A DNA stretch of 64,000 nt, from the NCBI RefSeq assembly GCF_000407485.1, contig NZ_ASWD01000003.1, forward strand, positions 558,001 to 622,000. Direction: 5' to 3'. Position 1 is the stretch's first letter, and each line of letters begins with the position of its first letter. This document shows positions 1 to 60,954 of this stretch, one piece after another. A model generated the notes under the pieces. The model searched no databases. It was not told where the DNA came from and was given only the letters and a program-made list of their open reading frames with translations. This DNA is from Enterococcus pallens ATCC BAA-351 (GTDB lineage Bacteria > Bacillota > Bacilli > Lactobacillales > Enterococcaceae). The position numbers and the translations under genes were made by a program.

Positions 1-900
1 TCGACGAACTCCGCTATCAAAAACAATTGGTACCCTTTTGTTGACTACTTCAGCAATTAAAGGTAATACATCAAATGATGCAGGCCCTCCATCTAGTTGA
101 CGTCCACCATGATTAGAAATCCAAATACCATCTGCGCCTGCACTGATTGCTACCTCAGCATCTTCAGGTGATTGGATTCCTTTCACAAACACTGGTAAGT
201 TAGTTATGTCCTTAATTTTCTTTATGTCTTCCGGAACTAAACCTTGTTTAGCGGCAGCATAAATTTCAGCGATACCTTTTCCTTCTCCATTACCAGCAGC
301 GTCTTTCTCACTATAAGCAGCTAGATTAGGCATTGGTAATGGAAACTCGAAGTGATTGATAATATCTTCCTCACGATATCCACCTAATGTAGAATCCGCT
401 GTTAAAATCACAGCCTTTGCCCCAGCTTGTACAGCCTTTGCCAAAATGAATTCATTAAATCCATCATCTTTACTCATATATAATTGGAAAAATTGTGGTG
501 CTCCAGGAGCAGCTTCTGCAGCGTCTTCAATTGTTGTATTTGCATAAGTACTTATAGAAAAAATTGAACCCACAGCTGCTACACCCTTGGCTGTATCAGA
601 CTCTCCTTTTTCATGAGCCAATCCTTGAGCAGCTGAAGGAGCCTGAATAATTGGTGTTTTCAGCTCCATATCCCAAAGTTTCGTACGTAAATCAGCATGA
701 TCAATTCCACGCAAAACTCTAGGCATGATTGATTTTTTATTGAAAGAAGCCGTGTTTTCCTTCATCGTCCATTCATCTTCAGAACCGCCACGAATATATC
801 CAAATGCACCCTTTTCCATACGTTCTTTCACACGCGCCTCTAAGGAAGCTATATTTACAATCTCAATTGGATGTTCTTCATTACTTGCTTGATAAGTCAT
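1..900 (-). CDS. lctO: L-lactate oxidase, FMN-dependent (C-terminus outside window)
   Basis: The gene starts at the ATG at 900, 8 nt after an AAGGA ribosome site, and stays open for 300 codons to the window edge. About 70 C-terminal residues are therefore missing compared with the roughly 370 usual for the family. The product belongs to the FMN-dependent alpha-hydroxyacid oxidases, TIM barrels that oxidise L-lactate to pyruvate and reduce O2 to H2O2. Supporting motifs are GYIRGGSEDEW near residue 35 (substrate tyrosine), LTADSTLGG, FVKGIQ, and SNHGGRQLDG near residue 265 with the catalytic His and substrate-binding Arg, then FDSGVRR. Lactate oxidase rather than glycolate oxidase is inferred from overall similarity to the lactic acid bacterial enzymes. 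It has its own promoter and is probably monocistronic at its 5' end. Confidence 0.88.
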   Translation of the reverse strand, partial: MTYQASNEEHPIEIVNIASLEARVKERMEKGAFGYIRGGSEDEWTMKENTASFNKKSIMPRVLRGIDHADLRTKLWDMELKTPIIQAPSAAQGLAHEKGESDTAKGVAAVGSIFSISTYANTTIEDAAEAAPGAPQFFQLYMSKDDGFNEFILAKAVQAGAKAVILTADSTLGGYREEDIINHFEFPLPMPNLAAYSEKDAAGNGEGKGIAEIYAAAKQGLVPEDIKKIKDITNLPVFVKGIQSPEDAEVAISAGADGIWISNHGGRQLDGGPASFDVLPLIAEVVNKRVPIVFDSGVRR

Positions 901-19736: not shown

Positions 19737-20720
19737 TCATCCTTTCAAAACGAGACGGCGTGTTTCTGACATGAGAGCAGCTATCATTTTTTCTTCATTA
19801 ATTCGAGGAAAGTGCCAAGTGAACTTATTCTCTGCATAGAATTTTTCAAAACGTTGAATCACGGATACTGGTTTATCTGGACTTAAAGAATAAAGATAGC
19901 GAAAAATAATATAAGTCTCATTGTAAAGAAAGGAATATTGACTGGGTAAATACATCCAATCTGGCAAATGAAGCAAGTGCTGATTTTGCTGGTACAAAAA
20001 TTGCTGTAAAGGTTTTATTCCTTGGTCAAAGGAGACTAGCTTGTTTGCTAAAAATCTTTTCTTATTTTGGATTTGTTGATCGCCATATTTAATTGCTAGT
20101 TTATCTTTTGTCACAATTTGCTTAACCTCTAATAACGGTTTTGAATAAAATGGAAAAGTATTTTTTGTGTAATAGTAGTGTTGATCTATTTTCTTAATAT
20201 GACTAAGTAAGTAAATTCCTTTAAAATCAATCAACCATAAATGAAATCCATTCTGTTGGTCATACGAGCAAAAATGCTTTTGTAAAGTACTCCAATTTTT
20301 TTTAGGCCATAAATTTGGACCCAATAGCCACCAATCTCGGTAATTACCGCTTTGATATCCAGCAAAGCGTTGAATTAAGCGAGAAATTTTCAATGAGGAA
20401 CATTGTATTTCTACAGCTGTACGATTTTGTAGCAAATCTGGTCGCTGCTTTAACTCAGGAAGCGGTTTTTCCAATTCCCAGTTTTCGCCGCACGAATAAC
20501 CACTATGCAAAAAAAGTTGTTTCAATTTTAAATGTTCTTGTGTTTCACCTTCACTTAACCCTTCACAGTTTGTTTTTTTTCGATGAGCAAAATGAGGTAT
20601 TTTTATCGTTCCTTGTTTGCAAATCAGTTGATCGCCACAATCTGGACAATAATAATTTTCTTTTGGCGAATAGTGTTTAACCGAAACCAATTGATTTTCC
20701 TTATTATATGCAAACAGCAT
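19737..20720 (-). CDS. coiA: Competence protein CoiA
   Basis: 327 residues from ATG 20720, with GGGGTGAT ending 4 nt upstream. N-terminal zinc ribbon YYCPDCGDQLICKQG near residue 24 and HFAHRKKTNC near 45, then a nuclease-like core: HLKLKQLF, RPDLLQNRTAVEIQCSS near 110, resembling a PD-(D/E)xK site. CoiA acts in the cytoplasm after DNA uptake, helping recombination of transforming DNA. It sits between mecA and pepF as in Bacillus and streptococci. Its promoter carries the same T8-TGCGTA element found before comGA. Confidence 0.92.
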   Translation of the reverse strand: MLFAYNKENQLVSVKHYSPKENYYCPDCGDQLICKQGTIKIPHFAHRKKTNCEGLSEGETQEHLKLKQLFLHSGYSCGENWELEKPLPELKQRPDLLQNRTAVEIQCSSLKISRLIQRFAGYQSGNYRDWWLLGPNLWPKKNWSTLQKHFCSYDQQNGFHLWLIDFKGIYLLSHIKKIDQHYYYTKNTFPFYSKPLLEVKQIVTKDKLAIKYGDQQIQNKKRFLANKLVSFDQGIKPLQQFLYQQNQHLLHLPDWMYLPSQYSFLYNETYIIFRYLYSLSPDKPVSVIQRFEKFYAENKFTWHFPRINEEKMIAALMSETRRLVLKG

Positions 20721-20740: not shown

Positions 20741-20755
20741 TATACGCAAAAAAAA
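20741..20755 (-). promoter_or_regulatory. Candidate competence (ComX-type) promoter element of coiA
   Basis: Minus strand: eight T (20755-20748) running into TGCGTATA (20748-20741). The box ends 20 nt before the coiA ATG. TGCGTATA matches 6 of 8 positions of the streptococcal com-box TACGAATA. No normal -35/-10 pair is seen. The T run is also the U-tract of the mecA terminator. Confidence 0.55.
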
Positions 20756-20776
20756 GAAGCCCTGTTCAGGCTTCTT
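20746..20776 (-). terminator. Terminator of mecA
   Basis: AAGAAGCC/GGCTTCTT stem (20776-20754) with a loop of about 6 nt, followed by a T run. The stem begins in the mecA stop codon. Confidence 0.85.
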
Positions 20777-21419
20777 AAACGAAATATTTCCGGGTGATTT
20801 CTATCGCATCTTTTTGCATTAATAAAGTACCGTATTCTTCTAAAAACTCTGGTGTTACTTGTGTATCTTCAGCATATTCTAGCACTTCAGCCACAACGTC
20901 TGAAATTGACGATTCTCCGTAAGTTTCTGGATCAAAATACAGTTGAAGATAATACATTTTATCGTACTGATACAAGTCACTCCAAGCCTCATCCAAAAAG
21001 GAATAGCTAGCTAATTCAATCATGTTTTCAAAATCGTTGAGTTTGAAAACACGTAAACGACCAATCTCAGCATTTTCGGGTGTTACATTTTGAGAAGCAA
21101 GAATCTGCTGACGAATTAATTGATCAAGGTCATTCGTTTCAAAATCACCTGGATCAGAAAACTTATTCAAATCATCTTGGGTAAGATTTTTACTAATGAA
21201 TAATTCCAGTCCATCATTTTTAGGCAATACTTGAAAAGTAACGGCTTCGCTACTCTTGAATTCATCTTCAATGTCAACTTCTTCTAAAATACTGTAAAAG
21301 AAGGACTCAATTTCGCGATGATTTCCAAGAAGATCTAAAAAAGTAATCCCTCGTTCTGCCAAATCATCACTGCCGATCATCACTCGAATGGTGTTTTCAT
21401 TGATGTGTTCCATTTCCAT
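20775..21419 (-). CDS. mecA: Adaptor protein MecA
   Basis: 214 residues from ATG 21419, 7 nt after GAGGTG. The N-terminal MEHINENTIRVMIGSDDLAERG is the substrate-recognising part of MecA, the middle is acidic, and the C-terminal ClpC-binding domain includes VFKLNDFENMIELASYSF and YYLQLYFDP. MecA directs substrates, notably competence regulators such as ComK or ComX, to the ClpCP protease. It therefore restrains competence, and its position next to coiA and near spx fits this job. This MecA is not the penicillin-binding protein of the same name. Confidence 0.95.
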   Translation of the reverse strand: MEMEHINENTIRVMIGSDDLAERGITFLDLLGNHREIESFFYSILEEVDIEDEFKSSEAVTFQVLPKNDGLELFISKNLTQDDLNKFSDPGDFETNDLDQLIRQQILASQNVTPENAEIGRLRVFKLNDFENMIELASYSFLDEAWSDLYQYDKMYYLQLYFDPETYGESSISDVVAEVLEYAEDTQVTPEFLEEYGTLLMQKDAIEITRKYFV

Positions 21420-35615: not shown

Positions 35616-35650
35616 TTTTACTTTCCAACTTTACTTTAGAATCAAATTAA

Positions 35651-35679
35651 ACTATACGTTCTATTCTTTCAAAGTGCAA
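35651..35679 (-). promoter_or_regulatory. Promoter of the oatA-like gene
   Basis: TTGCAC (35679-35674), 17-nt spacer, TATAGT (35656-35651) on the minus strand. Confidence 0.7.
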
Positions 35680-35925
35680 GAGGTATCTCAGAAAATAAAC
35701 ATTTCCTAAAATTTGTTTATCTAAAAAAATTATCGAACTTGTCTTGTTACTTTCATAGATTTTACAGCAATAAATGTTTCACTAAAAACCATAGCATAAA
35801 TCGAAATAAAAAGAAAATCCATACTTCCTCAAATATTCAACTACTGTATCATCGAAAAATTGCCTTAGTTCTGAGAAAAAACCTCTAGTAAATGAGTATA
35901 TTCCATAAACTTATTCTATTTTATA
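35680..35925. other. AT-rich spacer between yitT terminator and oatA promoter
   Basis: About 250 bases without coding frame, repeat or recognisable RNA. Confidence 0.5.
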
Positions 35926-35955
35926 CAAAAAAAAAGCGAGGCAACAGCCCCGCTT
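35926..35955 (-). terminator. Terminator of the YitT-family gene
   Basis: AAGCGGGGC/GCCTCGCTT stem (one G-U pair) with a 4-nt loop and nine T on the minus strand. The stem overlaps the stop codon. Confidence 0.88.
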
Positions 35956-36832
35956 AGTCTAAGGATTCTTCATAAAATCGTCCCATGATACGAACATTTT
36001 CGGAGATGCTAACGAAAGCTCCCGGATCTGTTTCTCTCATAATGTTTTCTAGTTGTGGCAATTCAAAACGTGTAACAACGGTGAATAGCACCGTCTGTTT
36101 GTCATGCTTATATGCTCCTTCTGCTTCGTTAATTATCGTAATCCCTCTTCGCATACTCTCCTGAATACCATTAATAACTTTATCGGGGCATTTAGTAACA
36201 ATCATCACCTGCATTTTGCGCTGTTTAGTATATAGTGCATCGGTGAGCTTTCCGCTCATAAAAATAGACAAGGCTGAGTAAAACATATATTGCCAGCCAA
36301 ACAAAATTCCAGCAATCAGCATAATCATTACATTAAAGATAATTGAGATGGAACCTACCGAGCGCCCTGTCTTTTTACGAATCGTAATACTCAAAATATC
36401 AAGTCCACCCGAAGATAGTCCATTTTTCAAAGCAAACCCAATCCCCACTCCCATTATAGCTCCACCAAAAATAGCACAAATAATAGGATCATTCGTTAAC
36501 TGTGTCTCTGGTATGATATGCATAAAAAAGGAAGTCAAAAAGACTGTCACAAATGTAAAAATCGTAAATTTATGACCTATTTTAAACCAAGCTAAAATAA
36601 ACAATGGAATATTCAATGCAAACAGCGTAATCGAAACTGGTATAGTATGTCCAAGCCATTGATGAGATAAGGTAGTCAATATTTGAGCAAATCCAGTTAA
36701 TCCACTAGAATAAATATTCCCTGGCTGATAAAAGAAATTGACAGCGATGGAAGCTAAGAATGCATAAACAACGGCAACAGACAAACGGGTAGCAAAATCA
36801 TGATACGGCCAACCCTCTATCTTTTTTTTCAT
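35954..36832 (-). CDS. YitT-family membrane protein (DUF161/DUF2179)
   Basis: 292 residues from ATG 36832. The frame extends to 36901, but a TATAAT on the minus strand (36874-36869) falls inside that extension, which favours the inner start; its ribosome site (AGAGG at 12 nt) is only fair. About five membrane helices (20-200) include NFFYQPGNIYSSGLTGFAQI and GLSSGGLDILSITIRKKTG, and a C-terminal soluble DUF2179 domain (215-292) begins VMIVTKCPDKVI. The family is widespread in Firmicutes; transport of an unknown substrate is suspected but unproven. It follows aspS after a terminator. Confidence 0.85.
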   Translation of the reverse strand: MKKKIEGWPYHDFATRLSVAVVYAFLASIAVNFFYQPGNIYSSGLTGFAQILTTLSHQWLGHTIPVSITLFALNIPLFILAWFKIGHKFTIFTFVTVFLTSFFMHIIPETQLTNDPIICAIFGGAIMGVGIGFALKNGLSSGGLDILSITIRKKTGRSVGSISIIFNVMIMLIAGILFGWQYMFYSALSIFMSGKLTDALYTKQRKMQVMIVTKCPDKVINGIQESMRRGITIINEAEGAYKHDKQTVLFTVVTRFELPQLENIMRETDPGAFVSISENVRIMGRFYEESLD

Positions 36833-36892
36833 TTTATTTAAAGGCCTCTTTTCCGCAAATTCATACACATTATACGGGGTTTCATAATAAAA

Positions 36893-36920
36893 AGAAAGCA
36901 CCCTCCAAAAGAGCGTGCTT
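36893..36920 (-). terminator. Terminator of hisS-aspS
   Basis: AAGCACGCTC/GAGGGTGCTT stem with one mismatch and a 5-nt loop, followed by TTCTTTTT on the minus strand. It lies 14 nt past the aspS stop. Confidence 0.78.
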
Positions 36921-36934
36921 ATCTTAGAATATTC

Positions 36935-38707
36935 TTAGTCTTCTACATTTGTAGTGTTAATGCTTAACTCATACAGCTGCAATGGTGATACTGTACTTGG
37001 AGCATCTGACATTGGATCAGCAGCCTTACCATTTTTCGGAAAGGCAATGACTTCACGAATGTTGTCTTCACCAGCTAATAACATCGCAAAACGATCTAAA
37101 CCTAAAGCGATTCCTCCAATTGGTGGGAAACCGTAATCTAATGATTCCAGCAAGAATCCAAATTGCTCATTAGCAGATTCGCGCGTAAAGCCTAATGTTT
37201 CGAAAACTTGTTCTTGTAATTCACGGGTATGGATACGTAATGATCCACCACCTAATTCGTAGCCGTTTAAGACAATATCATAAGCTTGAGCATAAACTTT
37301 TTCTGGATGATCCTTCAAGTTTGCAATGTCTTCATCGTTAGGCATAGTGAATGGATGATGTGCAGAAACATATCGCCCTAACTCTTGGTCATATTCAAAC
37401 TGAGGCCAATTTACTACCCATAAATAATTGAATTTGCTCTCATCAATTAAGCCTAGTTCTTTTCCGACCTTCGAGCGCACAGCACCTAAAGCTGTTACTG
37501 CCGTTAAGAATTGATCAGCAGCAAACATTAGCACATCGCCTGCTTCAGCTTTCATCGCTGCTTTAAGATCATCCGCAACTCCATCCATGAATTTTGCAAT
37601 CGGTCCAGTTAGCTCACCGTTTTCATCCACTTTAATCCAAGCTAATCCTTTAGCTCCGAACTGACCAACAAACTGGCCTAGGCGATCTAACTCTTTACGA
37701 GAATATTTGTCTGCAGCGCCTTTAGCATTTAAGGCTTTCACTACTCCCCTGTTGTCTGTAGCCATGCGGAACACTTTAAAATCTGTTGCGGCAGCAATTT
37801 CCGTTACATCAATCAACTCCATTTCAAAACGAGTATCAGGTTTGTCAGAACCATAACGCTCCATTGCCTCATCCCAAGTAATACGTGGGAAAGGTAGAGT
37901 CACTTCAATATTTAAAAGATCCTTCATTACTTGAGCAATCATGTTTTCAGTGTATTCTTGAATTTCTTCTGCTGTTAAAAAGCTAGTTTCAATATCAATC
38001 TGAGTAAATTCAGGTTGTCGATCTCCACGCAAATCTTCATCGCGGAAACAACGAACAATTTGATAATAACGATCAAAACCAGCTGTCATTAACAATTGTT
38101 TCAAAATTTGCGGTGATTGCGGTAACGCATAAAAATGACCCGGGTGAACACGTGATGGTACTAAATAATCCCGAGCTCCTTCTGGTGTTGATTTTGCCAG
38201 ATAAGGTGTTTCAATATCTAAGAAATCATTGTTATCTAGGAAATTACGAACCGATTGAGTCAAACGATGACGCAGCATAATGTTTTGAGTCATTTTCGGA
38301 CGACGTAAATCCATGTAGCGATATTTCAAGCGGACCTCATCACTAATATTCTGGTCATCTTCAATTGAAAATGGCGGAGTTTTTGCCTCGTTGAGGATAA
38401 CGATTTCTTCTCCTTTAATTTCAAAATCACCAGTAGTCATTTTAGGATTTACAGAGTTGTTATCTCGACGAATCACTGTTCCTGTAATTTCAACAACATA
38501 TTCACTACGGCATTGGTCAGCAACTTCCCAAGCAGCTTTTGATTCTTCTGGATTGAAAACTACTTGAACTACCCCTTCACGGTCACGCAAATCGATAAAG
38601 ATCAAACCACCTAAATCACGACGCTTTTGAACCCATCCTTTCAACGTTACCTTTTTATCCAACCATTGGTCAGAAATTAAACCACAATAAACCGATCTTT
38701 TAGCCAT
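36935..38707 (-). CDS. aspS: Aspartyl-tRNA synthetase
   Basis: 590 residues from ATG 38707 with GAGGAG upstream. Bacterial-type class II enzyme: N-terminal OB fold for the anticodon ([21 protein letters not shown] near residue 28), motif 2 [20 protein letters not shown] near 218, the bacterial GAD insertion (280-420), and motif 3 [13 protein letters not shown] near 530. It charges tRNA-Asp, and possibly tRNA-Asn if the organism uses the indirect amidation route. It starts 40 nt after the hisS stop and is under the same T-box. Confidence 0.97.
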
Positions 38708-38747
38708 TATTCTACTCCTCATTCTTTGTAATAAATTTTAATATGAA

Positions 38748-40049
38748 CTAGTCTTCAATAATGAAGGTCATCATCTCATCATAGACCTCATTAAATTGTT
38801 GATATACCTCTTCAAGAGAAAATGTTTTTTCTCTGTGAGATGCTAAAGCTTTTACATTAATCTGGCCTTTTTCTAATTCATCTTCTCCTAAAGTCAGAAC
38901 TAGTTTAGCACCCTGCTTATCTGCAGATTTAAATTGAGCCTTTGCTTTACGTTCCATAAAGTCACGATCCGCTGAATAACCAAATCCACGAATTGCTTGA
39001 ACTACTTTAAGAACCTCCATATTTGTTCTCTCACCAATACCCACTACATATGCATCAAGGTTATTGATGGCAGGAACGAGCACATCTTCTTGTTCTAATG
39101 TCAACAAAATACGTTCAATTCCCATAGCAAAACCAAAACCAGGTACAGCAGGTCCACCAAGCTCCTCTACTAACCCATCGTAACGGCCGCCTCCACAAAT
39201 CGTAGATTGCGCCCCCATTCCTGGAGCATCACTAATTATCTCAAAAATGGTATGAGTATAATAGTCCAGACCACGAACCATGCGATGATCTATTTCAAAA
39301 TCAATTTCTAAATACTTTAAGGTTTCAGTTACAGCATTAAAGTGTTTTTTAGCCGGTTCACTAAGATAATCTAGAATACTAGGTGCATTAACTACAATTG
39401 GTTTATCCTTCTTATCTTTACTATCCAATACCCGCAAAGGATTTTCGTGTAACCGTCGTTTGGAATCTTCACTTAATTCTGCTTCGAAAGGTTCTAGATA
39501 ATCAATCAGTGCCTGACGATAGGCCGCACGTGTTTCTTTATCACCAATTGAATTGATCACCAATCGTATTTTGCGAATTCCTAATTGATTGAAATAGTCC
39601 ATTGCCATTGCCACGATTTCAACATCTAAACTAGGATTTTCACTGCCGAAAGCCTCAATGCCAATTTGGTGAAATTGACGTAACCGCCCCTTTTGTGGAC
39701 GTTCATAGCGAAACATGGGACCGGTGTAATAAACTTTATAAGGTTTCTTGTGTTCTGGCCCAAACAATTTGTTTTCTACATAAGCCCGTACAATGGGTGC
39801 AGTTCCTTCTGGTCGAAGTGTTACATGCCGATCGCCTTTATCTCGGAAATCATACATTTCCTTTGATACAATATCTGTAGTATCTCCCACACTGCGTGCA
39901 ATCACCTCATAATGTTCAAACATGGGTGTACGAATCTCTTGATACTGATAATCACCAAATAGTAAACGAGCAGTTTCTTCCACAAACTGCCACTTTTCAC
40001 TCTCTCCAGGTAAAATATCATTGGTGCCTTTTGGTCGCTGATAATTCAT
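38748..40049 (-). CDS. hisS: Histidyl-tRNA synthetase
   Basis: 433 residues from ATG 40049 with AGAGG upstream; the open frame further back lies in the T-box terminator. Class II synthetase: [13 protein letters not shown] at the N-terminus, motif 1 region [12 protein letters not shown], motif 2 [17 protein letters not shown] near 110, the HisRS signatures LVINSIGD and [12 protein letters not shown] near 260, motif 3 [13 protein letters not shown] near 305, and a C-terminal anticodon-binding domain. First gene of hisS-aspS. Confidence 0.97.
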
Positions 40050-40075
40050 CTTTTTGCCTCTTTTCTTGATTGACG

Positions 40076-40310
40076 TAAAAAAGCCCTTGCTCAGCTGAAC
40101 AAGGGCGAAATAATCGCGGTACCACCTATCTTTGAAAAAGTTTCCTTTTTCCTCTAGCAATTAACGCTTGCGAAACGGAGCGGCTTTGCACGCGCTCATC
40201 TCCAGAATGTCTTTCAGGAACTCGATTTGGAATTGCTCTCAGCCTAGGCAATTCTCTCTGCACCCTCTTCGTTGCTTACTCTTTCTTTCATTGATGTTAA
40301 TTATCATCTT
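40076..40310 (-). promoter_or_regulatory. T-box riboswitch controlling hisS-aspS
   Basis: On the minus strand the leader has the T-box sequence AGGTGGTACCGCG (40127-40115), which pairs with the uncharged tRNA end to form the antiterminator, and a GC-rich terminator hairpin GCCCTTG/CAAGGGC with a T run (about 40106-40076). In stem I, GUUCCUGAAAGACAUUCUGG contains GAC directly overlapping CAU (40211-40207): codons for Asp and His. The leader begins after TTGACT at 40341-40336 with a weak -10 at 17 nt. Confidence 0.92.
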
Positions 40311-40345
40311 TTAAACTACTAAAAAAAGGCTGGGAAGTCAAGGAT

Positions 40346-40380
40346 AAGTGAAAAGAAAAAGCAAGATATTTCACTTTTTT
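40346..40380 (+). terminator. Hairpin upstream of the first aldo/keto reductase gene
   Basis: AAGTGAAA and TTTCACTT arms with a 15-nt loop and a following T run. It could stop stray transcription before the reductase gene or act as an operator. The reductase -10 is probably TACACT at 40393. Confidence 0.4.
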
Positions 40381-40426
40381 TGCATTCCACTTTACACTTA
40401 GTTGAAAGAATAGGAGTGAGAAACTA

Positions 40427-41371
40427 ATGACAGATGTAAGAATAGGTAGATCTCGAGTTTATTCAACAGACTTAGGTTTAGGAACAAATGCAGTTGGTGG
40501 ACATAATTTGTTCCCTGATTTAGATGAAGAACAAGGAAAAGCAGTTGTTCGTTCAGCATTAGATAATGGTATCACATTGTTAGATACCGCCTTTGCTTAT
40601 GGAATTGGCCGCTCAGAAGAATTAATTGGAGAAGTGCTGCAAGAGCCCAACTATGACCGTTCTCGAGTTATTGTTGCCACTAAAGCTGCGCAAGATGTTA
40701 CTAAAAATGATGCTTTGAACAATTCGCCGGAATTTTTAAAGCAAGCTGTTGAGGATGCCCTTAAACGATTACAGACGACTTATATTGATATATTTTATAT
40801 CCATTTTCCAGATGAAAATACTCCTAAAAATAAAGCAATTGCTGCTTTACACGAATTAAAAGAAGCCGGAAAAATTCGTGCAATTGGTGTTTCGAATTTT
40901 TCATTAGAACAACTACAGGAAGCAAATCAAGACTCATACGTAGATGTAGTTGAAGATCAATACAGTCTGTTACACCGCGAAGCTGAAAGCGAACTATTTC
41001 CCTATTTGAAGGAACACCGGATTAGTTTTGTACCATTCTTCCCCCTTGCATCTGGTTTGTTAACGGGTAAATATACTAAAGAAAATGATTTCGACAATTC
41101 AGATATCAGAAATGACAATCCTGACTTTAAAGGTGAACGTTTCAGACAAATTTTGGCAAAGGTTGATTTACTACGTCCGATTGCTGAAACCTACAACGCC
41201 ACAGTTGCTCAACTGGTATTGGCTTGGTACATGAAAAATCCTGCTATCAGCGCCGTAATACCTGGGGCAAAACACCCCGATCAAGTTGAAACAAACGCAA
41301 AAGCTGTCGACATTCGTTTATCAGAAGCAGACTATATTATGATTGATAACATTTTTAAAGACTTAAACTGA
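40427..41371 (+). CDS. Aldo/keto reductase (first of tandem pair)
   Basis: 314 residues from ATG 40427 after GGAGTGA. TIM-barrel aldo/keto reductase: the catalytic tetrad is the Asp and Tyr of LLDTAFAYGIGRSE near residue 50, Lys in VATKAAQ near 84, and His in IFYIHFPDE near 124. The NADPH-binding IPGAKHPDQVETNAKA is near 283. The substrate is unknown; the family reduces carbonyls of sugars, ketones and aldehydes. The next gene is a close paralogue. A terminator follows directly, so the two are separately transcribed. Confidence 0.9.
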   Translation: MTDVRIGRSRVYSTDLGLGTNAVGGHNLFPDLDEEQGKAVVRSALDNGITLLDTAFAYGIGRSEELIGEVLQEPNYDRSRVIVATKAAQDVTKNDALNNSPEFLKQAVEDALKRLQTTYIDIFYIHFPDENTPKNKAIAALHELKEAGKIRAIGVSNFSLEQLQEANQDSYVDVVEDQYSLLHREAESELFPYLKEHRISFVPFFPLASGLLTGKYTKENDFDNSDIRNDNPDFKGERFRQILAKVDLLRPIAETYNATVAQLVLAWYMKNPAISAVIPGAKHPDQVETNAKAVDIRLSEADYIMIDNIFKDLN

Positions 41372-41392
41372 GGCCCTTGTCTCAGTTTTTTT
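41366..41392 (+). terminator. Terminator after the first aldo/keto reductase
   Basis: AACTGAG/CTCAGTT stem, 8-nt loop, then a T run. It overlaps the stop codon. Confidence 0.85.
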
Positions 41393-41400
41393 GTTGCACA

Positions 41401-41446
41401 AAAAAAATAGAAAAAGCAAAGTGGGTATCGCTTTTTCTATTTTTTT
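41401..41446 (+). terminator. Second hairpin after the first aldo/keto reductase
   Basis: AAAATAGAAAAAGC and GCTTTTTCTATTTT arms, long AT-rich stem, 12-nt loop and T run. It may be a backup terminator. Confidence 0.6.
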
Positions 41447-41587
41447 ACTTTAAACTATTATAAAGACCTTCTATGTAAAATAATCGTTGTTATGGGTAAC
41501 GTGCTCAAGTTTAAGTCATCTTCATTAGGAGGCAAATTATTTAGGTTTAAATGATTTAATAATAAAAGTCAAGGAGTGATAGTAGTA

Positions 41588-42523
41588 ATGTCGGAAGTAC
41601 AAATTGGAAAATCTTCAGTATATGCAAGTAAATTAGGCTTAGGAACAAATGCTGTCGGCGGACACAATCTATACCCAAATCTAGACGAAGAAGTTGGGAA
41701 AGAAGTTGTCCGGACTGCTCTTAGAAATGGCGTCACTTTGTTAGATACTGCTTTTTCTTATGGTCGCGGCCGCTCAGAAGAATTAATTGGCGAGGTTTTA
41801 CAGGAAGAGGAATTTGATCGATCCAAAGTTATTATTGCCTCCAAAGCCGCACATGATATGTCTAAAGATGGGGCCTTCAACAATTCTCCAGCGTTCCTTA
41901 AAAAGGCAGTCGAAGAATCATTGAAACGCTTGCAAACGGACTATTTAGATATCTTTTACATTCACTTTCCTGATGAAACTACTCCTAAGAATGAAGCAGT
42001 AGCTGCTTTGTATGAATTAAAACAAGCGGGCAAAATAAAGGCTATTGGCGTTTCAAATTTTTCATTAGAACAATTGAAGGAAGCCAATCAAGATGGTCAT
42101 GTTGATGTGATTGAAGAACGATACAGCTTAATTCATCGAGAACACGAAGATACCTTGTTTCCTTATTTGAAAGAACAACAAATTACTTTTGTTCCTTATT
42201 ACCCGTTAGATTCTGGCTTATTAACTGGAAAATACGAAAAAGAAACTGTATTCGACGATAGCGATCTTCGCAGCAAAAATCCGGATTTTAAAGGGGAACG
42301 CTTTAAAGAAATTATTGGTAAAGTTGATCATTTAAAACCAATAGCTCAAAAATATAAAGTATCAGTAACACAGCTAGTTTTAGCTTGGTATATGAAACAT
42401 CCGGTAATGGGTGTTGTAATTCCGGGAGCGAAGCGGCCTGAGCAGGTAGAAAGCAACGCTAAAGCAATTGACGTAGAACTTTCAAAAACTGATTTTGATC
42501 ACATCGATCAATTATTCCAATAA
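41588..42523 (+). CDS. Aldo/keto reductase (second of tandem pair)
   Basis: 311 residues from ATG 41588 behind AAGGAGTGAT; the open frame 4 codons earlier starts inside the ribosome site. It has the same tetrad ([28 protein letters not shown]) and cofactor motif ([16 protein letters not shown]) as its upstream neighbour and is identical at roughly two residues in three, so the pair arose by tandem duplication. Differences lie mainly in the loops after the Tyr and around residues 180-240, so substrate preference may differ. Confidence 0.9.
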
Positions 42524-42535
42524 TTAGACATACAA

Positions 42536-42592
42536 AAGACTCTTTACCTCCTTTAATCGTTAGCTTTAACGAAAAGAGGCAAAGAGCCTTTT
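42536..42592. terminator. Bidirectional terminator between reductase and D-2-hydroxyacid dehydrogenase genes
   Basis: Outer arms AAGACTCTTTACCTC and GAGGCAAAGAGCCTTTTT with an inner CGTTA/TAACG hairpin. A and T runs flank both ends. Confidence 0.75.
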
Positions 42593-42621
42593 TGCAACCA
42601 ATAATCACTATTCTATTTTTC

Positions 42622-43581
42622 TTAGTTTACTACATTTTGCGGCTGACCATTAAGAAATCCAGACAAATTATCCACCGCGATCCCCATCAAGCGTTCACGA
42701 GTTTCTACTGGAGCCCAAGCAATGTGAGGCGTGATAATACAGTTTTTTGCCTGAAGCAACGGATTATCTGATTGAATAGGTTCGGTCGAAACTACATCAA
42801 CACCCGCAGCTGCGATTTTCCCAGTATTCAAGGCCTCAGCAACAGCAGCTTCATCCAACAATCCTCCACGAGCTGTATTTAACAAAATTACGCCATCTTT
42901 CATTTTAGCAATAGCGGATCGATTGATCATTTCAGTAGTATCCTTAGTTTGAGGTACATGCAGACTGATCACATCTGAGCGTTGGTATAACTCGTTCAAA
43001 GAAACCTGAGCTGCCCATTCCTCGGCTTCTTTCGGTCGATGATTGGCGTAGATAACTGTCATATTCATTGCATGAGCAATTCTAGCGGTAGCTTGGGCTA
43101 TCGCACCATAACCTATTAAACCAAAAGTTTTGCCCCTCAATTCCATTAAAGGTGTTTTGGTATACATAAAATCGACACTATTTTGCCAATCGCCAGCATG
43201 TACCGATCGATTGTGTAGCCCCACCTGGCTAGTGATCTCCAATAATAAAGCAAACGTAAATTGGGCAACTGCTTCAGTTCCATAAGACGGAATATTAGTT
43301 ACCACAATTCCTCTCTCACCGGCTGCTTGAGTATCCACCACATTATAACCTGTAGCAATCACACCAATATATTGAACCTTAGGTGTTTGAGCTAAAACTG
43401 TTTCGTCAATCGGTGTTTTGTTGGTAATAACCACTTCTGCTTCACCAATCCGCTGAATAATTTCTGATGTATTGGTATAGGAAGTTCGATCATAAACAGT
43501 AATCTCTCCGAACTGCTCAAATCCTTCCCAAGTTAAATCTCCAGGGTTTAACGCATAACCATCTAATACTACAATTTTCAT
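42622..43581 (-). CDS. D-2-hydroxyacid dehydrogenase family protein
   Basis: 319 residues from ATG 43581 with GAGGAGGA upstream. NAD-binding Rossmann motif GLIGYGAIAQATARIA near residue 148, catalytic residues in LLNTARGGLLDEAA near 230 (Arg), the Glu near 262, and His in ITPHIAWAP near 287. It resembles the glycerate/hydroxypyruvate reductase branch more than the D-lactate dehydrogenase branch, but substrate specificity is not certain. A single gene between terminators. Confidence 0.88.
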   Translation of the reverse strand: MKIVVLDGYALNPGDLTWEGFEQFGEITVYDRTSYTNTSEIIQRIGEAEVVITNKTPIDETVLAQTPKVQYIGVIATGYNVVDTQAAGERGIVVTNIPSYGTEAVAQFTFALLLEITSQVGLHNRSVHAGDWQNSVDFMYTKTPLMELRGKTFGLIGYGAIAQATARIAHAMNMTVIYANHRPKEAEEWAAQVSLNELYQRSDVISLHVPQTKDTTEMINRSAIAKMKDGVILLNTARGGLLDEAAVAEALNTGKIAAAGVDVVSTEPIQSDNPLLQAKNCIITPHIAWAPVETRERLMGIAVDNLSGFLNGQPQNVVN

Positions 43582-56618: not shown

Positions 56619-56987
56619 TTAATAATTGGTTCTTTGCTCGCTTTCTTCCTCATTAGAAGAAACAACAGTAGATTGAGTAGTTTCTCTTCCAATTTTTTCT
56701 GAAAAATTGTAAATTTTCCCTTGAATAGCTACACGAATTTTCACTGTATCCTTCTTTTTCTCGTAAGAAAGCTCTCCCTGATCAAAATTCCAGATCCCCT
56801 GTTCAGCCTCCAACGGCAAATGAGCTATCAAAAATTCTTCTTTAGCAATTTTTGCCTGATACAGTTGAATTGTTCGCTTTGAAAAGTCCGTGGTTTGGCG
56901 ATAAGTAAACAGTAGATGCAAGACTAAAAAGCTAAAAAGAAAAATCAACAGCAATACTGAAATTAGAATCCCGCCCCGTTTATTCAA
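56619..56987 (-). CDS. comGG: Competence pseudopilus protein ComGG-like
   Basis: 122 residues from a TTG at 56987, inside the end of comGF. The N-terminus is one hydrophobic helix (GGILISVLLLIFLFSFLVLHLLF) without the KGFTLLE prepilin motif, followed by a charged region: the ComGG pattern. It is the last gene of the operon. Sequence is weakly conserved in the family, so the name rests largely on position. Confidence 0.75.
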   Translation of the reverse strand: MNKRGGILISVLLLIFLFSFLVLHLLFTYRQTTDFSKRTIQLYQAKIAKEEFLIAHLPLEAEQGIWNFDQGELSYEKKKDTVKIRVAIQGKIYNFSEKIGRETTQSTVVSSNEEESEQRTNY

Positions 56988-57408
56988 TCACCCAAATTCC
57001 TTTCTTCTTCATGCCATCATTGAAGATAACTTCGAATTCTACAGTATGATTAACTTCACGACAGTTGAATGCGTATACCTGAGTAAACAGCGGTTGATGT
57101 CCATTTTTATAATTCTTTCGAACAGTTGAATTAGCCCTTTCTATTTTAACTAGATTCCCTGATCCGTCTGTTAACACAATTCTATGAGCTTCTGTTTTAC
57201 TGTGTTTTAACCCAGCAAGCTCATTTTCCAATTGCAGCAATCCGACTTCCCACTCCCGACTGTGATAGGCTGTCAATTGCTGCTCAACTTTAGCCATATG
57301 TTTAATTAACCCATCTAGCAAGAGGAGACTTCCTCCCAATACTAGCAGTGCTACTAAGCATTCTAAAAGCGTAAAACCTTTATATTGCTGATAACCTTTT
57401 TCTTTCAC
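56980..57408 (-). CDS. comGF: Competence pseudopilin-like protein ComGF
   Basis: 142 residues from a GTG at 57408 behind AAGGAG. A prepilin-type leader is present: YQQYKGFTLLECLVALLVL, with the cleavage Gly and Glu5 as expected, and a helix to residue 35. The C-terminal part is beta-rich (EVNHTVEFEVIFNDGMK), like the family. It is a minor component of the competence pilus. Confidence 0.85.
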   Translation of the reverse strand: MKEKGYQQYKGFTLLECLVALLVLGGSLLLLDGLIKHMAKVEQQLTAYHSREWEVGLLQLENELAGLKHSKTEAHRIVLTDGSGNLVKIERANSTVRKNYKNGHQPLFTQVYAFNCREVNHTVEFEVIFNDGMKKKGIWVIE

Positions 57409-57431
57409 TTATCTTCTCCTTTATCAGCTTT

Positions 57432-57617
57432 TTACGGATAGAGCCGTTTATGGCGAAGCTCAATATAAAGATTGCGATATTGCTCAACCTTTTCCAACTG
57501 CTGCTGGGTCTGTTTTTGCAACTGAATCGTGATCGATAAGTAGCCATAAGTCATTCCCATCATTAAAGATAAGCTTACTAGACTCTCTAATAAAATATAT
57601 CCTTTATTTTTTTTCAA
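57432..57617 (-). CDS. comGE: Competence pseudopilin-like protein ComGE
   Basis: 61 residues from a TTG at 57617, 8 nt after AGGAAG, overlapping comGD by 14 nt; a GTG at 57626 is the alternative. The leader KKNKGYILLESLVSLSLM has the prepilin motif with Tyr and Ile in place of Phe-Thr. The remainder is a short helix and charged tail, shorter than the usual 90-100 residues. A minor pseudopilin of the competence pilus. Confidence 0.78.
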   Translation of the reverse strand: MKKNKGYILLESLVSLSLMMGMTYGYLSITIQLQKQTQQQLEKVEQYRNLYIELRHKRLYP

Positions 57618-58062
57618 AACGACCACTTCCTAACTGAAATTGGTAAGTAACCTCTCCATACTTGTCGGTAAACCTGATTTTAGGAATGCCGGTCTCTGGT
57701 TGATTCGTAGAAACGTTTCCCGTACTACTTTTAAACATAATCGAGTATCCGCTATGCAAAACAACTGATTCTGGTACTTCCAAATTTTTCCAAGGAAGCT
57801 CTTCCTCAATTGTCTTAAAAGCAATCAGCTGTTTATCTGGATGCAAGTCAATTCGGGTATTTTTTTGATCACAAATTGCTACCTGCTGGAGATGCAGCAT
57901 TGACTTCTCTAGTTGATAGTAAAAAAATTGACATTCAAGCTTTTGTTGCCAACTGGAGAACATCACCGTTGGCAACAAGACAAAGCTGCAGATTACAATC
58001 ATAACGATTAAAGTTTCGATCAATGTGTATCCTGATTCATTTCTAAGGCTTCGCTTTTTCAT
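57604..58062 (-). CDS. comGD: Competence pseudopilin ComGD
   Basis: 152 residues from ATG 58062, within the end of comGC, so it overlaps by 20 nt and is coupled; the frame open to 58095 lies wholly inside comGC. The leader NESGYTLIETLIVMIVICS carries the type IV prepilin pattern (GYTLIE). The C-terminal domain is beta-rich. A minor pilin. Confidence 0.85.
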   Translation of the reverse strand: MKKRSLRNESGYTLIETLIVMIVICSFVLLPTVMFSSWQQKLECQFFYYQLEKSMLHLQQVAICDQKNTRIDLHPDKQLIAFKTIEEELPWKNLEVPESVVLHSGYSIMFKSSTGNVSTNQPETGIPKIRFTDKYGEVTYQFQLGSGRFEKK

Positions 58063-58318
58063 AGGTTTCTTTTTGTTTGTCTGTAATATACCCATCCGTT
58101 ACTAATTCTTCTAATGTTGGACGACTGCCTGTTTCTAATTCATAAACTTCCATTTGCGTTTCAACTACCTTAACAATCGATTCATCACTTTTGTTCTTGG
58201 CAGAGTCTTTTTGCTTCATGATATTTGGCACAAACAACAGCAGTAATATACTAATAACAAATAGAACGACCATCATTTCCAGTAAAGTAAAACCTTTGAG
58301 CTTTTTCTTTTTCACCAT
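58043..58318 (-). CDS. comGC: Major competence pilin ComGC
   Basis: 91 residues from ATG 58318, 3 nt after GGAGG, inside the comGB stop region. The leader KKKLKGFTLLEMMVVLFV has the canonical KGFTLLE cleavage site for prepilin peptidase ComC, and the N-terminal helix is followed by a short soluble domain with YITDKQKETYEKAKP at the end. ComGC is the main subunit of the DNA-binding pilus. Confidence 0.93.
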   Translation of the reverse strand: MVKKKKLKGFTLLEMMVVLFVISILLLLFVPNIMKQKDSAKNKSDESIVKVVETQMEVYELETGSRPTLEELVTDGYITDKQKETYEKAKP

Positions 58319-59322
58319 ATTCCCTCCAAACCGCTGGATAGCGGCAAAAGCATAGCAACATAAATACTGACAATTAACAAAGCAACTAACAAAAATACAA
58401 GTGGCTGCAGCCAAGAACATAAAAATTCTAGTCGGGCAAAGAAGCGTTGCCAAACCAATTGGCTATAGACAAGCAATTCCTTTCCTAAATTGCCCCGAAC
58501 TTCACCCTGCTGGACTATTTGTCCGAATTCCTTCGTCAAAAAGGGATACGCTTTTAATTGATGAGCTAAGGATTGACCTTGAACTAGTTGCTGCTGTAAT
58601 GAAGCTGCTAATTCTTTCATAAGCGACTCTTTTTCTGTTGCCAGAAGACACGCAATAATCTGCTGCAGTTCCAAACCTTGATCAAAGAGTTTTCCCCACT
58701 CTAAAGCAAAGTAGGCTGAATAATAATCCCGATGCAACCGTCCAATTAACGGTAATTTAGCTAGAAAGCTATATTTAATAAGATAGCTTTGCTTCTTTCC
58801 CCAATAGTTCCATAAAATTAGCAATAACATACCTATTAATAAAACACCGATAACAAACCAAGGAGCTGCCTGGATGAAGAGAATCGAAGGATTATCGACA
58901 GCTATCATCCCACTTTCTAACAATTGAGGTAAAAGAAGGGTTCGCATACCCAACAAAATTAGCAGTAAAAAGAGCAGCAGCAAAGCTGGATAGGAAATCG
59001 CCTTAATAAAGTTTTGACGTTGTTTTTGAACCAGTAACATCTGTTTCGCAATTCCCTTTAAAGTAAGAGCAATACCTCCATGCATCTCGCCTAAAGCAAC
59101 CTGTAATACTTGATCAGCTGAAAAGTTTAGCTGGGCAAAGCTTTTCGATAAAGATTGTCCGCTATGAAGATTTTTCTGTACTAATTGTACAAGTTCCACT
59201 GGAAAAGTATCTGTTGTCTGCAGAAAGTACAACGCCTGCTGCAAACTAAAACCATTCGTAAGTAGATCTCCTAATAGCTGACAAAAGGTAATTTTTTGTT
59301 GGGATGTCAATCTGTTTTTCAT
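58312..59322 (-). CDS. comGB: Competence pilus membrane platform protein ComGB
   Basis: 336 residues from ATG 59322, overlapping comGA by 4 nt. The GspF-type platform: two soluble four-helix domains (QKITFCQLLGDLLTNGFSLQ near residue 8; FALEWGKLFDQGLELQQIIA near 195), each followed by membrane helices, with a final helix at 305-330. It anchors the ATPase ComGA and assembles pilins. Confidence 0.92.
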   Translation of the reverse strand: MKNRLTSQQKITFCQLLGDLLTNGFSLQQALYFLQTTDTFPVELVQLVQKNLHSGQSLSKSFAQLNFSADQVLQVALGEMHGGIALTLKGIAKQMLLVQKQRQNFIKAISYPALLLLFLLLILLGMRTLLLPQLLESGMIAVDNPSILFIQAAPWFVIGVLLIGMLLLILWNYWGKKQSYLIKYSFLAKLPLIGRLHRDYYSAYFALEWGKLFDQGLELQQIIACLLATEKESLMKELAASLQQQLVQGQSLAHQLKAYPFLTKEFGQIVQQGEVRGNLGKELLVYSQLVWQRFFARLEFLCSWLQPLVFLLVALLIVSIYVAMLLPLSSGLEGIW

Positions 59323-60233
59323 AGCTTTCTTTCCTCAACTTGTTTCAATCCTTCTTGCCAGCTAAAATGTTTTGGCTGATCCTCGTAAAATGTGTAGCTC
59401 ATCAATAATCCTACTTCCTTTTTCTGGTAGGGAAGTAATTCTTGGTAAATAATCCCGCGCAAACAATCTTGTAATAATTGCTTATCCCCTCCTAACTCGA
59501 TTGCTCGATTCTCTGCTGCTTCTAAACTAGACGCGTGTAACGTTGCAAATACACAATGACCAGTTAGTGCCGCTCGAATTGCTCCAAGAATTGTTTTTTG
59601 ATCACGGATTTCACCAATGATTAACACATCCGGATGATGGCGTAAAGATAGTTTGATGAGCTCCTCATAGGTCTGATGAATCTTTTCATTGACCTGCAGC
59701 TGCAGAAAATCCGACTCTTCAATTTCGACAGGGTCTTCAATAGTTAATACTTGACCGCCACGTTCCTTCGCCAGCTTATACATTAAGGTTGTTTTTCCAG
59801 AACCCACTGGTCCACAAAACAGATACAAGCCTTTTGAATGGCAAGCCTGAAGAATAGTCACTAATTGTTCAGGCAATAAGTAATTCTCACAACTATTCCC
59901 AAACGAATGCAAAAAGCGGATGACTAAGCTTTCTCGCTGTAAATAGTCACCTACAGTAGATAAGCGCAAACGCTGCTCCTTATTGGGAAGAATATAAGTA
60001 ATTGCTCCTAATTGTGCCTTGCGCCTTTCACTGACATCCATTTGTCCCAAGTACTTAAACCGACTAATCAACTGCCTTCCAATTTCATCTGATACACAAC
60101 CCTGGCCATGATAAAAAGGGCCTTGACGAAAGTAATACTCATAATGATCTACTTTGGGCATTAAATAGAAATCCTGCATCTGCTCCTTAGAACCATACCA
60201 AACCAATTCTGTTGAAAATTCTTCGATAGTCAT
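59319..60233 (-). CDS. comGA: Competence pilus assembly ATPase ComGA
   Basis: 304 residues from ATG 60233, 6 nt after GAGGTG; a GTG three codons upstream lacks a site. GspE-type ATPase: Walker A CGPVGSGKTTLMYK near residue 148, Asp box TIEDPVEIEES near 170, Walker B DVLIIGEIRD near 205, and His box TGHCVFATLHA near 225. It powers pilus extension. First gene of comGA-GG. Its promoter has the same T8-TGCGTA element as coiA. Confidence 0.95.
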   Translation of the reverse strand: MTIEEFSTELVWYGSKEQMQDFYLMPKVDHYEYYFRQGPFYHGQGCVSDEIGRQLISRFKYLGQMDVSERRKAQLGAITYILPNKEQRLRLSTVGDYLQRESLVIRFLHSFGNSCENYLLPEQLVTILQACHSKGLYLFCGPVGSGKTTLMYKLAKERGGQVLTIEDPVEIEESDFLQLQVNEKIHQTYEELIKLSLRHHPDVLIIGEIRDQKTILGAIRAALTGHCVFATLHASSLEAAENRAIELGGDKQLLQDCLRGIIYQELLPYQKKEVGLLMSYTFYEDQPKHFSWQEGLKQVEERKL

Positions 60234-60253: not shown

Positions 60254-60268
60254 ATTACGCAAAAAAAA
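60254..60268 (-). promoter_or_regulatory. Candidate competence (ComX-type) promoter element of the comG operon
   Basis: Minus strand: eight T (60268-60261) running into TGCGTAAT (60261-60254), 20 nt before the comGA ATG. The eight T plus TGCGTA are identical to the coiA element at the same distance. No normal -35/-10 pair is present. The T run doubles as the U-tract of the trmB terminator. Confidence 0.6.
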
Positions 60269-60295
60269 GCGAGTCCAATCTAGACTCGCTAAAAA
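60260..60295. terminator. Terminator of trmB
   Basis: AGCGAGTC/GACTCGCT stem with a 7-nt loop and T8 on the minus strand; the A6 on the other side makes it usable in both directions. Confidence 0.85.
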
Positions 60296-60300
60296 AGTTT

Positions 60301-60954
60301 TTATTTTTTTGTTTTATCTGAAAAACGAGCTTCTACACGATAAATTGGTTGCCCTTTTTTAGAAAATTTTTCTTCGTATTCGGTCATGATATTTCCTTCA
60401 TACGGACTATGGTGCAAGTCCAACCAAACTTGTTCCAAAATCATCCCATATTTTGAGAAACTGCTTAATGAATATTCAAATAACCCTTGATTGTCAGTTT
60501 TAAAATGAATCTCACCATTGGGACGTAAAATAGCTTCATCTACTGCTAAAAAACTTTGATAAGTTAAGCGGCGTTTTTCATGTCTTTTCTTAGGCCACGG
60601 ATCTGAAAAATTCAAATAGATTTGATCTACTTCACTTTCTGCAAAATAATTAGTTAATTCTGAGCCATCGACATGCAGCAATTGTAAATTCCGTACCGGT
60701 TCATCAATTAATTTGTCTAAAGCAAAAGAAACTACGCTTACTTGCATGTCTATTCCAATATAATTAATCTCTGGATGTGCTTGAGCCATTTGATTGATAA
60801 ACTGTCCTTTTCCCATACCGATTTCAATATGAATTGGCTGATTATTTCCAAAATGCTCTTGCCAACGCCCCTTCCAGCTTTGAGGTTCCTCAACTACAAA
60901 CTGTGGATGAGCAGCTAATAGTTCCTCAGCACCTGATCTTTTTCTTACACGCAT
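60301..60954 (-). CDS. trmB: tRNA (guanine-N7)-methyltransferase TrmB
   Basis: 217 residues from ATG 60954 behind AAGGAGG. Rossmann methyltransferase with SAM loop [17 protein letters not shown] near residue 42, [16 protein letters not shown] near 67, [16 protein letters not shown] near 118 (catalytic TrmB signature), and [13 protein letters not shown] near 155. It methylates N7 of G46 in tRNA. It follows the phosphotransferase gene after a terminator. Confidence 0.95.

Follow-up and report, generated by a model that had tools for sequence, protein, structure and literature searches.

The closest described counterparts of the element analysed here are the streptococcal SigX-box, also called com-box or cin-box, and the sigma-H systems of Listeria, Bacillus and Lactobacillus sakei. 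In Streptococcus mitis, Table 4 of PMC6001120 gives the coiA SigX-box as TTTTT-0-TACGAATA-22-ATG, and the same source gives that of comGA as TTTTT-9-TgCGAATA; according to PMC7218084, the streptococcal box is transcribed in vitro by sigma-X. In Listeria, sigma-H drives comGA and comEA, and its promoters are described with a -35 of RMAGGRWWW, a spacer of 11–12 nt and a -10 of RRMGAAW (PMC4754846). In L. sakei, overexpression of sigH raises comGA 280-fold, and sigma-H switches on the comG, comE and comC genes (PMC3364868); a role of sigma-H across the Lactobacillales appears, in the text of that paper compared here, as speculation only. A search of the open-licence literature, as far as its accessible text goes, yielded no published description of an enterococcal com-box.

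We analysed a stretch of 64,000 nt from Enterococcus pallens, hereafter the window, in which the initial annotation had noted a matched T8 element at the same 20-nt distance from the start codons of comGA and coiA. This was borne out at both genes, down to the coordinates. On the minus strand, T8-GCGTAAT (60268-60254, context ...GACTCGC-TTTTTTTT-GCGTAAT) ends exactly 20 nt upstream of the comGA ATG at 60233, and T8-GCGTATA (20755-20741, context ...GGCTTC-TTTTTTTT-GCGTATA) ends exactly 20 nt upstream of the coiA ATG at 20720. The features surrounding the two elements are the following:

19737..20720, minus strand: coiA, 327 aa, with Pfam CoiA_nuc and CoiA_N above their cut-offs
20741..20755, minus strand: putative com-box variant of coiA, T8 then GCGTATA, octamer TGCGTATA at 20748-20741
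20754..20776, minus strand: intrinsic terminator-like hairpin 3' of mecA, 9 pairs, its T-tract being the T-run of the coiA box
20775..21419, minus strand: mecA, the same-strand gene upstream of coiA (Pfam MecA, 160.7 bits)
56619..58453, minus strand: comGC, comGD, comGF and comGG, the rest of the comG operon
58312..59322, minus strand: comGB, above its NCBIfam cut-off
59319..60233, minus strand: comGA, 304 aa (NCBIfam NF041000, 306.9 bits, cut-off 300)
60254..60268, minus strand: putative com-box variant of comGA, T8 then GCGTAAT, octamer TGCGTAAT at 60261-60254
60268..60290, minus strand: intrinsic terminator-like hairpin 3' of trmB, 10 pairs, -14.2 kcal/mol, its T-tract being the T-run of the comGA box
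60301..60954, minus strand: trmB, the same-strand gene upstream of comGA

At comGA and coiA alike, a GC-bearing hairpin followed by a T-run gives the form of an intrinsic terminator. A repeat check of positions 35500-43000 returned just one direct repeat, of 72%. The pattern TTTTTTTTGCGTAWW has two exact matches in the window, which are the comGA and coiA elements only; when up to two mismatches are allowed it has 7, against 3.8 expected, and since 6 of 100 shuffles reach 7 matches, the loose pattern by itself is not significant in the window. The further likeness that had been claimed between the two upstream regions, TACG.GGTGA, is present but mostly corresponds to the Shine-Dalgarno sequence GAGGTGA, which was found in 46/120 com upstreams vs 8/368 others among Enterococcaceae loci. 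This strong preference at com genes is perhaps caused by their very short leader.

Across the 5.44 Mb E. pallens genome, TTTTGCGTAWW has 43 matches, compared to 25 for the reversed control pattern, and the surroundings of all 43 were inspected. Five of them precede late competence operons: coiA (L027), comGA (L028), comFA (L031, 434 aa), whose start lies 19 nt beyond the match, comEA (L035), where the start is 23 nt beyond it, and rpsF-ssb (L040, 166 nt between the start of the match and rpsF, both genes named by eye). Moreover, comC, found by its domain, has the upstream box TTTTGCGTATC. The proposed recurrence of the element at other late com genes was thus observed at comFA, comEA and comC, and also at rpsF-ssb, but dprA has a weak form only, TTTTTTGCTTATC, a one-off match inside a hairpin that was left uncounted. 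The dprA upstream region (L049) is itself a long inverted repeat (AAAATCTCTC...GAGGGATTTTT) enclosing a com-box-like TTTTTTGCTTAT.

At the genome rate, the chance of a match in a given 60-nt upstream stretch is 2.4e-4, and for two given genes it is 5.6e-8, in agreement with the earlier statement that the sharing between comGA and coiA is hard to explain by chance, although the pattern was taken from these two genes. Likewise, the chance that at least 4 of 7 late operons carry the element is 1.1e-13. Because coiA and comGA supplied the pattern, the fair probability is the one for 2 of the 5 remaining operons (comFA and comEA), about 6e-7, calculated by hand at the genome rate. For comEC (741 aa) and for comFC (222 aa) an open frame with a family match is present, and the uptake machine therefore looks complete. 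At rpsF-ssb (L040, G000:C8:29148) the box is terminator-fused, and a sigma-A-like promoter lies further down, as judged by eye. In Bacillus subtilis, ssbA is boosted in competence; the rpsF-ssb box suggests a similar rise of the single-strand binding protein during competence here.

The element was then followed across the Enterococcaceae, with gene starts called by script; the assignment to this family is based on a 60-base probe from L075 that recurs without change in a record of E. lemanii. For comGA, 104 of 105 family genomes gave a match and the best 30 of the 104 loci were examined; for coiA, comFA, comEA and sigH, the search covered 30 genomes chosen from 16 genera, which are not the 30 genomes of the comGA loci. 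All four genes were present in 30/30 of the chosen genomes, some of them broken: comFA lies in pieces or carries a stop in G001, G011, G015, G018 and G054, and a stop falls within the match of sigH in G002 and G012, of comEA in G009 and G095, and of coiA in G046. In several family members (genus g13 and others), two further ComGA-like ATPases were found side by side, which by eye look like a separate type IV pilus-like system.

T[GA]CGTA lies at most 75 nt upstream of the called start in 24/30 comGA, 21/30 coiA, 25/30 comFA and 23/30 comEA loci, and in 0/30 sigH loci. Over the same distance, the longer TT[GA]CGTA was found at 78 of the 120 com starts, 0/30 sigH starts and 1/371 other ORFs; it should be noted that these sequences share kinship within the Enterococcaceae, and the counts are not independent trials. 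The lone match outside the com genes is a re-called coiA (L085) whose upstream stretch was shortened; upstream of the other genes in these loci the element is practically missing. The strict form is absent at 42/120 com starts, partly through misplaced starts. When no alignment was made beforehand, the top enriched 6-mer was TGCGTA (79/120 com upstreams vs 0/368 others, a control set that leaves out L085). The comC gene carried a CGTA box in 10/10 loci read, among 21 matches listed in 20 genomes. For rpsF, a box was observed in 9/9 loci of the window's genus. Among the 11 rpsF loci outside it, boxes at the usual distance occur in L379, L380, L381, L384, L385 and L386 (those of L380, L381 and L385 were spotted by eye, the script having missed them), the box of L382 is 307 nt away, and L376, L377, L378 and L383 (4/11) have none.

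To describe the box, a logo was drawn from 109 boxes in the 120 com upstreams, leaving out 8 with truncated or misplaced starts (L070, L117, L121, L139, L155, L161, L164 and L170) and 3 without a box (L089, L103 and L143). After a T-run it shows G (77%) or A (15%), then C, G, T (96%), A, T (64%), T or C, T (91%) and T (73%), where the CG and the next A are constant because boxes were selected for them. Of the 109 boxes, 105 have the core CGTA and 4 have CGAA. Measured from CGTA to the start codon, the median distance hardly differs between the four genes (22 nt for comGA, coiA and comEA, 21 nt for comFA). In 86/109 boxes (41 fused to a hairpin and 45 unfused), at least 4 of the 6 nt immediately preceding the box are T, a count raised by our taking the most T-rich among several candidate boxes. 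No -35 or other strong upstream signal was seen in the logo of the 109 promoters, all positions from -45 to -8 being at or below 0.36 bit.

In its layout this element resembles the streptococcal SigX-box. A T-run abuts the box, as it does for some of the S. mitis boxes, the start codon follows after ~20 nt, the same late com genes are concerned, and the box is paired with a SigH/ComX-type sigma. It also has the location of a SigX-box, just upstream of comGA, coiA, comFA, comEA, comC and rpsF-ssb. The enterococcal boxes differ from the streptococcal ones in their core, CGTA (105/109) in place of CGAA; they also vary more in the last bases, are often fused to a terminator, and include rpsF-ssb. 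None of the 109 boxes is identical to the streptococcal octamer TACGAATA: one mismatch was found in 6, two in 20, three in 42, four in 39 and five in 2, and the E. pallens comGA octamer differs from it at 4/8 positions. The closeness to the streptococcal com-box that had been proposed is therefore true of the layout but not of the octamer, which is replaced by a family-wide variant with CGTA for CGAA. Since it has the layout and position of a com-box but failed the octamer comparison, we class the element as a diverged com-box, which, judged from its letters and setting, would be the best name for it.

The resemblance to the other sigma-H systems is looser. With the Listeria and Bacillus sigma-H promoters the enterococcal boxes share a sigma of the same family, but they have no visible -35 and their core is CGTA. 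With the L. sakei sigma-H regulon they share a non-sporulating host and a sigH gene in a Bacillus-like locus, a comparison made without a box sequence, as the text of PMC3364868 compared here contains none. In a wider comGA map, obtained by a search through 158 genomes of the order (60 upstreams and 7 further loci), 22 of the 67 loci gave a box, 8 had no callable start and several starts were misplaced. CGAAT boxes were found in families f3 (8 loci, 6 boxes) and f7 (5 loci, 4 boxes), and CGTA in some genomes of f2, f4 and f9.

The initial annotation had also called for a comX or sigH gene, and a gene of this type is present. The E. pallens genome encodes 5 PF04542 proteins; the SigH/ComX-type sigma, of 193 aa, is encoded at C2:1136229-1136807 in the gene order rlmB-yacP-sigH (read from the ORFs, with rlmB and yacP named by eye), a kind of locus described for Bacillus and L. 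sakei (PMC3364868). It matches sigma-70 region 2 (PF04542, 27.8 bits, cut-off 24; TIGR02937, 54.8, cut-off 42.9), and with 40.7 bits it falls below the cut-off of 294.8 of the curated spore_sigH model TIGR02859. A profile of 21 enterococcal SigH retrieved ComX-sized sigmas (161–177 aa) in 5 of 6 f3 genomes, with E values of 2e-15 to 5e-20; two of these five genomes carry two copies, and one copy adjoins a nusG-like gene, as judged by eye. The sixth genome (G114) gave just a 371-aa sigma, at 7.7e-4. We infer that f3 corresponds to the Streptococcaceae because of these ComX-like features and because a Streptococcus ratti locus has the same CGAATA box; on this assignment, the family of the 193-aa sigma would have detectable homology to streptococcal ComX.

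In the SigH alignment (without L173, L175, L177, L181, L193, L194 and L198-L200), a residue of region 2.4 co-varying with the CGTA or CGAA box was sought by eye, and no clean correlate emerged; f8 genomes have CGAAT boxes yet hold an RxQxAxKR stretch in common with the enterococci. It may be added that sigH has diverged far more rapidly than its presumed targets, with 65% identity to the nearest relative (G006) vs 88% for ComGA.

We therefore read the element, with a probability of roughly 0.86, as the -10 region and T-rich spacer of SigH/ComX-type promoters that would switch on the late competence operons together. The near-fixed spacing, the occurrence at four genes family-wide, the near absence elsewhere, the sigma gene and the SigX-box layout all appear to support this reading. 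The sigma encoded at C2:1136229-1136807 would recognize the element as a -10 region, and transcription would start a few nt downstream of the box. Once the sigma is made, comG, coiA, comF, comE and comC would be turned on together, with an extra promoter for rpsF-ssb, and induction would be expected to yield competence. The shared ComX-type competence promoter of the initial annotation is thus largely upheld, by the box at other late com genes, its scarcity elsewhere, the sigma gene and the SigX-box layout, but the T8 run, taken there as part of the promoter, doubles as a terminator tract.

Alternatively, a competence activator, ComK-like or of another kind, could bind the element, with initiation from a sigma-A promoter; a fixed short motif at several com genes would suit this activator, as it would suit any regulator. 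The annotation had held that neither gene has a sigma-A pair, and this is true of comGA, upstream of which no TTGACA-16..18-TATAAT pair was found, but at coiA there is one weak match (TGAACA-18-TATATT, 9/12; shuffles expect 1.5) that overlaps the box and speaks for an activator. Against it stand the lack of this match at comGA and the lack of any other strong upstream signal in the 109-promoter logo; besides, since the box is ~20 nt from the start codon with the Shine-Dalgarno sequence in between, there is no room for a downstream sigma-A promoter. We regard an activator site as unlikely.

The 3' arm of a hairpin abuts the T-run of the box in 41/109 promoters (comFA 14/27, coiA 11/28, comEA 9/25, comGA 7/29). 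In 100 shuffles, which left the last 9 nt in place and permuted what lies upstream of them, abutting hairpins numbered 0.5 on average and 2 at most at the strictest score, and 1.2 and 5 one step lower. An abutting hairpin was also found at 9 of the 13 script-found rpsF boxes. In E. pallens, the T-run of the coiA, comGA, comFA and rpsF boxes is the terminator T-tract of the preceding gene; genome-wide, 9/43 TTTTGCGTAWW matches are fused to a hairpin, of which 4 are com operons, and terminator fusion is not unique to com genes. Outside the Enterococcaceae, 2/22 comGA boxes are fused, S. ratti being a fused 23rd. The hairpin sequences vary between genes and genera, and the fusion has therefore arisen repeatedly or is easily kept.

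These hairpins could also point to a leader RNA element, in which the com operons are reached by read-through out of the preceding gene, across a regulated terminator, and the conserved bases act as a signal in the RNA. The terminator-like hairpins that immediately precede the box in 41/109 promoters, and those at the rpsF boxes just mentioned, fit such a leader, but the box is kept without an abutting hairpin in 68/109, the start codon follows it at a near-fixed distance, and the streptococcal counterpart is a template for sigma-X in vitro (PMC7218084), all of which makes a leader RNA very unlikely. Least probable of all, and hardly credible, is that T8 is a terminator tract only, shared since both genes follow terminators: both T8 runs are indeed terminator tracts and 5 other genome matches also lie behind hairpins, but, besides the 68/109 boxes without one, 45 of which still have at least 4 T of 6 (under a T-favouring choice of box), the same-genus comGA loci L061 and L064-L066 have the terminator and the box T-run apart, and the invariant part, CGTA with the downstream TT, is needless for a terminator.

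As the T-run is often kept in unfused boxes (45/68, where background T is 43% and the choice among candidates favoured T), it probably contributes to the promoter in its own right. The simple reading of the fusion is economy: the terminator provides the T-run, just GCGTA must follow, and the hairpin bars upstream transcription from the operon. This suggests an easy origin of a com-box, the T-run being supplied, and a way in which com operons stay silent. Given that the T-run of the box is the terminator tract of the upstream gene, transcription arriving from upstream is expected to stop exactly at the com promoter. A working composite can also be imagined, in which the polymerase that ends mecA, trmB or the gene before comFA or rpsF is released with its active centre at the com promoter and, in the presence of SigH/ComX, is captured there and re-initiates; single-molecule studies have reported recycling on DNA after termination (PMC6978380, PMC6978322). 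We find such capture unlikely. If true, steady housekeeping transcription would feed the competence operons, and a promoter class using a terminator T-tract as sigma contact would be new.

The main competence genes are present in enterococci, and now that a box has been defined and a sigma gene named, the question of a live enterococcal competence programme becomes directly testable. Moreover, the CGAAT-to-CGTAT difference over six operons offers a good case of a regulon that remains coordinated even as its promoter sequence drifts.

The remaining 38 of the 43 genome matches are not upstream of known com genes, 5 of them also following a hairpin. At L004 (G000:C1:134774), a terminator-fused TTTTTTTGCGTATAtatatta lies upstream of a HicA/HicB-like pair (family assigned by eye), the HicA-like frame looking short at its N-terminus, and at L010 (G000:C1:1121428) a terminator-fused box lies upstream of a RelE-like/HTH pair resembling a toxin-antitoxin system, again by eye. 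A rplY-like gene is also among the genes near the 43 matches. Finally, L017 (C2:339623) and L043 (C13:983) precede two similar ORFs, which we take to be Rpn-like nucleases, with the common upstream sequence TTTTGCGTATA, perhaps by copying.
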